A DNA stretch of 37,279 nucleotides from positions 1 through 37,279 of the forward strand of contig JAICUF010000014.1 in the NCBI GenBank assembly GCA_025935995.1, written 5' to 3'. The stretch's first letter is position 1; the number at the start of each line of letters is the position of its first letter. Position numbers and translations under genes: made by a program. The DNA is from Gemmatimonadales bacterium (GTDB taxonomy: Bacteria; Gemmatimonadota; Gemmatimonadetes; Gemmatimonadales; GWC2-71-9). The notes under the pieces were generated by a model. The model did no database searches and had not been told where the DNA came from. It worked only from the letters and a program-made list of their open reading frames with translations. This document shows, piece after piece, positions 13,725 through 18,608 of the stretch.

Positions 13725-15034
<1,310 letters not shown>

Positions 15035-15038
<4 letters not shown>

Positions 15039-15316
15039 TCAAGAATCTGGTCGAGGACCACGTGATTGCCGCGTACGATGCGCTCAAGGTGCACGTCCCG
15101 GACTTCTGCGGCTGCGCGATCTGCCGCGGCGACGTGCTGGTCTATACGCTGAATCGGGTACCCGCGCGCTACGTAGCGACGGCCGAGGGCAGCGCCGTCA
15201 CCGAGCTCAATCTCGAGAAGGACCAGTCGCGGGCCCTCATCGATGTGACGATGCTCGAGGGGTTCCGGAAGGTGGCGAGAGGGCCGCGCTGCGGCCGCCG
15301 GCCCGGGTCGACCTGA
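15035..15316 (+). CDS. comFB: ComFB-family late competence protein
   Basis: The 93-residue protein matches the ComFB domain. It has an N-terminal helix (IKNLVEDHVIAAYDAL), the zinc-type cysteine cluster CGCAIC (Cys25, Cys27, Cys30), then RGDVLVYTLNRVPARYVAT, which is the family's most conserved stretch. B. subtilis comFB lies in the competence operon comF. ComFB-type proteins in cyanobacteria have been reported to bind cyclic dinucleotides. Here the gene is wedged between miaB (ATGA overlap) and comEC (probable CTGA overlap), so a role in controlling DNA uptake is a natural inference. The C-terminal tail ([12 protein letters not shown]) is basic and outside the usual domain; the DNA encoding it contains a small inverted repeat. 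Confidence 0.88.
15282..15296 (+). repeat. Inverted repeat just before the comEC start
   Basis: GGCCGC at 15282-15287 and GCGGCC at 15291-15296 form a perfect six-base stem with a three-base loop, ending 16 bases before the proposed comEC CTG. It lies in the comFB coding tail. It could slow ribosome access to comEC or be a by-product of high GC. Confidence 0.4.
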
Positions 15317-17553
15317 GACTCCGTCCGGGCGTCCTCGTTCCGCTTGCCTTCGGGGCCGGTCTCGCGACCGGCCTCTTGCGTTTCGGGGTACCGGCCGGCG
15401 GCTGGATGATGGGAGCGGCGGCGCTGGTCGCCGTGCTGAGGGGCGCGCAAGCGCGGCTCGCGGCGGCCGTCGCGGGTGCGGGCCTTCTGTCGGGCACGAT
15501 GGCGCGCACGGCCGACGCGATGAGCTGCGCGGCGCGACTGCCGGCGGCACGCATCGCAATCACGGTTCGTGCCATGGAGCCGGTCGCCGGCGGAGGGGTG
15601 GCGCGGGCCCGCCCGGTCCGCGCCGCCTGCGCCGGAGCGATCGACGTGAGGTGGTCCGCCCGCGATACCCTCGATGCGGGCGCGATCGTCTCGCTCAGCG
15701 GGCGCTGGCTTCCGAGGCCGGACGCCGTTCCCCGAGCCGGACTTCTCGTCGCGGAATCCGCCCGGCGCACTGCCGGGCGGGCGACCGGTCTCGATCGGCT
15801 GCGAACGGGCATGGCGCGCGCGATCGACCGCCTGTATGGGCGCCGCGCGGCGATCGTCGGCGCGCTCGTGCTCAACGCGCGCGGCGCAATGGATCCCGAT
15901 CTGCGCGATCAGTTCGCGCAGTCCGGTCTCGTGCACATCCTTTCGATTTCGGGCTTCCATGTCGGCCTCCTCGCGGCGTGGGTCGTGCTCATCGCGCGCA
16001 CCCTCGGGAGCCCACGATCGCGCGCCCTCGCGCTCGGCGCCGCCGTGGGCGCGCTCTACGTCGCGTTTCTGGGCTGGCCCGCGCCCGCCACGCGGGCGGC
16101 CGCGCTCGCGGCGCTCCTCGCGCTCGGGTATCGGCGGCAGCGTCGCATCGAGCCGAACGCGCTGCTCGCGGCCAGCTGCCTCGTGGTCATGCTGGTCGAT
16201 CCCTGGTCTGTGCTCGATCTCGGCGGGTGGCTGAGCGCGGCGGCGCTGTGGGGCGCGTCCACCTTCACCCGCTGGAGCGACCGGGCGTTTGGCGAGGGCT
16301 TCTGGCCCCGCACCTTTTTCTCGTCGGTGGGTGCGACGCTGGCGACGGCGCCGCTCACCGCGGCAGCCCTCGGCGCGGTCGCGCCCATCGGGATCGCGCT
16401 CAACTTCATCGCGATTCCGATCGCCGCAGTGGGTGTGCCAGGCGTCCTCGCGAGCCTGGTCGCCGCGCCGCTCTGGCCCGGGCTGGCGGCGGCGCTCGCC
16501 GCGGGATCGGGCCTCGCGCTGCAGGGGCTCGAGTTGCTGGCGCACCTGGGCGCGGCGGTCCCCGGCGGACATGCCGTGATGGAGGCCGGAGTCGGAAGCG
16601 GCATCCCCTGGGCGGTGGCGCTGCTCGCCACGCTCTGGGCGCTCGGGCGGCGCAACACGCGGCGGGAGGCTGCCCGGCGCGGGGCGCTGCTCGTGGCCGC
16701 GGTCACATGGGCCCTGCTGATCTTCCGGGACCTGCCGGCGACTGACGCCACTCCCGGGCTCACGTTAGATTTTCTCGACGTCGGCCAGGGCGACGGGGCG
16801 GTCCTCCGGACGCCGGCCGGCCACTGGATCCTGATCGACGCGGGTCCGCTCCTGGGCTCGGCCGACGCCGGGCGGCGCGTGGTGGCACCGTTCCTTGCGC
16901 GGCACGGCGTGCGGCGGCTCAGCGCGATCATCATCTCGCACGCGCATGCCGACCACGTGGGCGGCGCCGCCAGCGTGCTCCGGCGGGTGCGGGCCGACGC
17001 CGTCATGGAGCCCGCCGAGCTCTATGATGATCCGGCCTACGCGGGGTTCCTCGACGCGGTGGCGGAGACGGGCGTCCCGTGGCGGGCCGGACGCGCCGGC
17101 GCCACGTTCACGATCGACAGCGTCCGTTTCACCCTGCTGCACCCCGATACCACGTGGGCCGAATGGCACGATGACCTCAACGAGGACTCGATCGTGCTGC
17201 GGGTGGACTACCGCGCGTTCACGGCGCTCTTCGCCGGCGATGCCGGGCTTCGCGCCGAGGCGCGGATGGCGGGGCACGTGGGCCGCGTGGATCTCCTGAA
17301 GGTGGGCCACCACGGCAGCCGCGGCGCGAGCGGCGACGCCTGGCTCGCGGAGCTGGCGCCGCGCGCCGCCGTCGTCAGCGTGGGTGCGCACAACCGCTAC
17401 GGCCACCCATCGGCCGAAGCCCTCGGCCGACTCGCGCGGCACGGCGTGGACGTCTGGCGCACCGACCGGGACGGCACCATCGGCGCCGTCACCGACGGCC
17501 ACAGTCTCACATTGCGTGCCGCCCGGCGCGTGGTTCGCTACCCAGTCGAGTAA
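15313..17553 (+). CDS. comEC: DNA internalisation channel ComEC/Rec2
   Basis: Inner-membrane channel that carries single-stranded DNA into the cytoplasm during natural transformation. With the proposed start the protein has 746 residues. Order: N-terminal membrane helices, a DUF4131-like OB segment (residues ~75-150), the multi-spanning Competence domain ([16 protein letters not shown] and [16 protein letters not shown], near residue 183 onward), and a C-terminal metallo-beta-lactamase domain (from ~483). The latter has [12 protein letters not shown], an intact HAHADH metal motif at 543-548, VGHHGSRG and [12 protein letters not shown], so the nuclease-like site looks complete. The first standard start in frame (TTG at 15376) would cut through the first membrane helix, [15 protein letters not shown]. 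The frame continues upstream without a stop, and a CTG at 15313 overlaps the comFB stop as CTGA, so I place the start there. Identity is secure; the start is inference. Confidence 0.9.
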
Positions 17554-17567
17554 GGAGAGTTGGCGAC

Positions 17568-18604
<1,037 letters not shown>

Positions 18605-18608
<4 letters not shown>

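Follow-up and report, generated by a model that had tools for sequence, protein, structure and literature searches.

The window analysed here, a stretch of 37,279 nucleotides from an uncultured member of the Gemmatimonadales, an order found in soil and water (genome of 2.86 Mb, 87% complete), includes the genes miaB, comFB, comEC and fbp, lying in one direction on the forward strand between positions 13725 and 18608. The gene miaB (13725-15038) encodes a tRNA methylthiotransferase (TIGR01574, 438.7 bits, above the cut-off). It is followed by comFB (15035-15316), encoding a 93-amino-acid protein of the PF10719 family, and by comEC (15313-17553, with a CTG start deduced from homologues), whose predicted product is the DNA uptake channel (TIGR00361, 218.3 bits, above the cut-off; PF03772 and PF00753). 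Finally, the fructose-1,6-bisphosphatase gene fbp (17568-18608; PF00316 and NF006778) is a conserved neighbour that constitutes the downstream end of the conserved block. These four genes sit within a longer run of genes on the same strand, which are mostly housekeeping and include alr, argS and ribD. A single copy of comFB was found in this genome, and the nearest named record (JAICVB010000008.1) encodes a ComFB with 95% identity.

Gene junctions and the start of comEC

The first-pass annotation of this DNA had described four-base overlaps on both sides of comFB. The left one stands as described, the stop codon of miaB and the start codon of comFB sharing the ATGA at 15035-15038. The right one, the CTGA at 15313-15316, holds only if comEC begins at the CTG at 15313; the first ATG, GTG or TTG in the comEC frame is the TTG at 15376. 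We consider the CTG a likely and plausible start, because GTG or ATG start codons are present at the same protein position in relatives (LRLRPGVL in the window aligns with VKLRPAIL in a relative) and because the sister genome likewise has a CTG at this position, with the same CTGA overlap.

Across the Gemmatimonadales, the -4 spacing between miaB and comFB recurs in 43 of the 67 scored loci. The comFB-comEC junction, in contrast, is a gap in most loci of the order and rarely an overlap: besides the window's genus, an overlap of at most four bases with a standard comEC start is listed in five loci only (L005, L017, L023, L026 and L032). If there is translational coupling, its conserved part would be on the miaB side and not on the comEC side. 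The earlier suggestion that coupled translation fixes the ratio of ComFB to ComEC is not supported, since the conserved overlap is the one with miaB.

A scan of the region for promoters found no site, and the count of terminator-like sites was near chance expectation. The first codons of comEC contain, at 15352-15375, a hairpin of 10 pairs that has a T-rich tail.

The ComFB protein and its characterized relatives

The window protein matches PF10719 with an E-value of 1.4e-15 and 57.5 bits (curated cut-off, 25 bits) and contains both the FCGCAIC cysteine cluster and the VLVYTLNR block. The first-pass placement of a ComFB with these two elements between miaB and comEC is therefore confirmed, the three genes being contiguous. 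An alignment with B. subtilis ComFB (PDB 4wai), a member of the same Pfam family, indicates that the two proteins share all the candidate zinc ligands (C25, C27 and C30 of the CxCxxC motif and a C-terminal cysteine, C86 in the window protein) and all the putative dimer-interface residues (N4, E7, D33, N40 and Y46), as designated in the B. subtilis study (PMC4381287). In the ligand pattern of the family, the C-terminal position may be Cys or His. The AlphaFold monomer model (pLDDT 90.1) has the four-helix ComFB fold, with 4wai as its best match (E-value 5e-5, TM 0.77). A search of the PDB with the single protein retrieved 4wai alone, and a profile search added 8hja, the structure of a cyanobacterial ComFB/CdgR (profile E-value 1.4e-3). 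The same two structures, and no others, were convincing matches in the fold search, 8hja with a Foldseek probability of 1.00 and an E-value of 4e-3. Judged by its alignment and its predicted fold, the window protein is an ordinary ComFB.

Several differences from the characterized systems were also noted. The B. subtilis gene is located within the comF operon (comFA-comFB-comFC), whereas the neighbours of the window comFB are miaB and comEC and not comFA or comFC; moreover, the window protein scores 27.8 against the NCBIfam equivalog model of Bacillus ComFB, for which the cut-off is 120. The cyanobacterial protein (Synechocystis Slr1970, Anabaena Alr3277) is longer and has no cysteine cluster in the part that aligns, and its gene is found with hfq (PMC12313861). 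Within the Gemmatimonadales, the ComFB proteins of one genus (g21; loci L020, L023, L026, L028, L032 and L034) no longer have the CxCxxC cluster either, although their other conserved positions are intact; in this they resemble cyanobacterial CdgR.

The first-pass annotation had assigned the protein to a family with reported cyclic-di-nucleotide binding, and published work agrees with this (PMC12313861; PDB 8hja). In Synechocystis, ComFB binds c-di-AMP and c-di-GMP, ComFB controls piliation in cyanobacteria, and in 2025 it was tied to the cyclic-di-nucleotide control of cyanobacterial competence (PMC12313861). Anabaena CdgR binds c-di-GMP and works through DevH on cell size (PMC13075795). However, a role of ComFB in competence is not general, because the deletion of comFB in B. 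subtilis leaves transformation unchanged under standard conditions (PMC4381287). For the B. subtilis protein, a zinc-bound dimer has been shown and zinc or redox sensing proposed (PMC4381287). The window ComFB, with its four candidate ligands, could accordingly be a zinc or redox sensor that uses this metal site and responds to no nucleotide signal. However, the three-cysteine cluster is missing from the g21 members, in which the rest of the protein is kept, and from the aligned stretch of CdgR, and we regard such a sensor as rather improbable.

Conservation and probable insertion and loss of comFB

In the Gemmatimonadales, miaB lies upstream of comFB in all 69 loci found (68 genomes). Three of these loci stop at a contig edge and were left out of the downstream count; comEC follows comFB in 64 of the 66 loci with a continuing contig. 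Among 298 genomes sampled across the phylum, comFB was detected in 65, all belonging to the window's order. For comparison, 54 comFB loci were taken from records whose names do not include Gemmatimonadota; most are from Bacillota, Spirochaetes and Omnitrophota. At none of them did tblastn or a ComEC profile reveal a comEC or miaB ORF in the fetched flanks, and no description of the comFB-miaB-comEC arrangement was found in the literature searched. In this sample, the conserved pairing of comFB with comEC is limited to one order, so that a known protein is encoded here in a gene neighbourhood specific to this lineage.

One genome (G027) gave two ComFB matches (L030 and L052), each adjoining miaB and comEC, the second at a contig edge; this may reflect a mixture of strains in the assembly. 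Locus L095, considered as a locus devoid of comEC, was rejected and not counted, as runs of N follow comFB.

In genomes of the order that lack comFB, miaB and comEC are usually adjacent, with gaps of about 10-290 bases. Outside the order, the two genes are still close in most of the loci read, at distances from 47 bases (L162, from another class) to several hundred; the exceptions are L157, where they are further apart, and L156 and L158, where they were not found together. A profile built here detected no ComFB-like ORF in the miaB-comEC gaps of the comFB-less genomes, with the exception of L164. At this junction (genome G034, which has comEC and lacks a full-length comFB), a short ORF, MAIANLNEEIVGREYERLASTVPDC-RIVQESPRPECSRR, combines the start and the end of ComFB without the middle (profile E-value 0.01) and looks like a comFB in decay from which the middle has been deleted. 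Because miaB and comEC are also adjacent without comFB in related families, comFB is a probable insert in an older block. By parsimony, it probably entered a miaB-comEC-fbp block at or before the base of the Gemmatimonadales and was then lost several times.

Between the window and its sister genome, dN/dS is 0.056 for comFB, 0.085 for miaB, 0.157 for comEC and 0.046 for fbp, and comFB is under purifying selection. In two genomes of one genus (G040 and G116), fbp comes straight after comFB and no comEC match was found anywhere in the genome; this genus retains dprA and pilM, and its comFB, with a dN/dS of 0.09, is likewise under purifying selection. Since comFB remains under such selection without comEC, ComFB has a ComEC-independent function in this genus.

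These observations bear on the model put forward in the first-pass annotation, in which ComFB is the receptor of a nucleotide signal and has the ComEC channel as its direct target, coupled translation setting the ratio of the two proteins. The position of comFB directly 5' of comEC in nearly all the testable loci, together with the CTGA overlap in the window's genus, is consistent with this model. However, comFB is kept under selection in the genus without comEC, and it has no match in about 79 of the 94 comEC-bearing genomes of family f2. Moreover, an overlap with comEC is rare in relatives, where the overlap with miaB is common, and the cyanobacterial gene accompanies hfq and acts on pili (PMC12313861). 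A direct action of ComFB on ComEC is thus disfavoured, and the model as a whole appears improbable.

The candidate signal and the proposed role of ComFB

GGDEF domains were detected in all 80 genomes tested, with seven in the window genome, and MshEN domains in all 15 genomes tested, the window genome also having them. By contrast, no DAC domain, that of the c-di-AMP synthase, was found in the window genome, where a gene may have been missed at 87% completeness. DAC was present in 32 of the 65 genomes with comFB and was not found in the other 33, several of which are 98-100% complete. Because no DAC domain was found in the window genome, the evidence leans towards c-di-GMP over c-di-AMP as the ligand of ComFB, if it has one. 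PilZ, a competing c-di-GMP receptor, gave no match in the window genome or in 14 of the 20 genomes tested, a result that argues neither for nor against ComFB as a c-di-GMP receptor. The DAC-bearing half of the comFB genomes, and the binding and phenotype described in Synechocystis (PMC12313861), would fit c-di-AMP as the signal; given the genomes in which DAC was unseen, the window's among them, we consider this very improbable.

The reading that we favour, tentatively and at somewhat less than an even chance, is that ComFB is a receptor of a cyclic di-nucleotide, likeliest c-di-GMP, and a soluble regulator of the type IV pilus or of competence whose gene resides in an older block. By analogy with the B. 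subtilis protein, ComFB would most likely form a zinc-bound dimer. Its ligand would be one of the cyclic di-nucleotides, with c-di-GMP as the most probable, and the soluble protein would regulate type IV pilus or competence functions without being a dedicated part of ComEC. The proximity of comFB to comEC would then bring about shared transcription at most.

Alternatively, such a receptor could serve a role other than uptake, for example in cell size through a transcription factor, its adjacency to comEC being inherited and without meaning. The mostly housekeeping genes around comFB, the action of Anabaena CdgR through DevH (PMC13075795) and the survival of comFB after the loss of comEC all point in this direction. 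However, comFB is always at the same place in the genomes searched, and the ComFB of other bacteria is associated with genes for competence or with competence phenotypes (PMC12313861, PMC4381287). We therefore judge this alternative unlikely.

The favoured reading, a soluble regulator responding to c-di-GMP, belongs to the wider question of how far the cyanobacterial control of competence by ComFB (PMC12313861) extends. The variants found in this clade, with comFB in the comEC block, many genomes without a detected DAC domain and one genus without comEC, separate the question of the ligand from that of the channel. In a narrower and doubtful form of the proposal, a c-di-GMP-dependent ComFB switch, expressed together with comEC, would set when DNA uptake can occur in the Gemmatimonadales. 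If true, this would constitute a direct link between c-di-GMP and natural transformation in the Gemmatimonadota.
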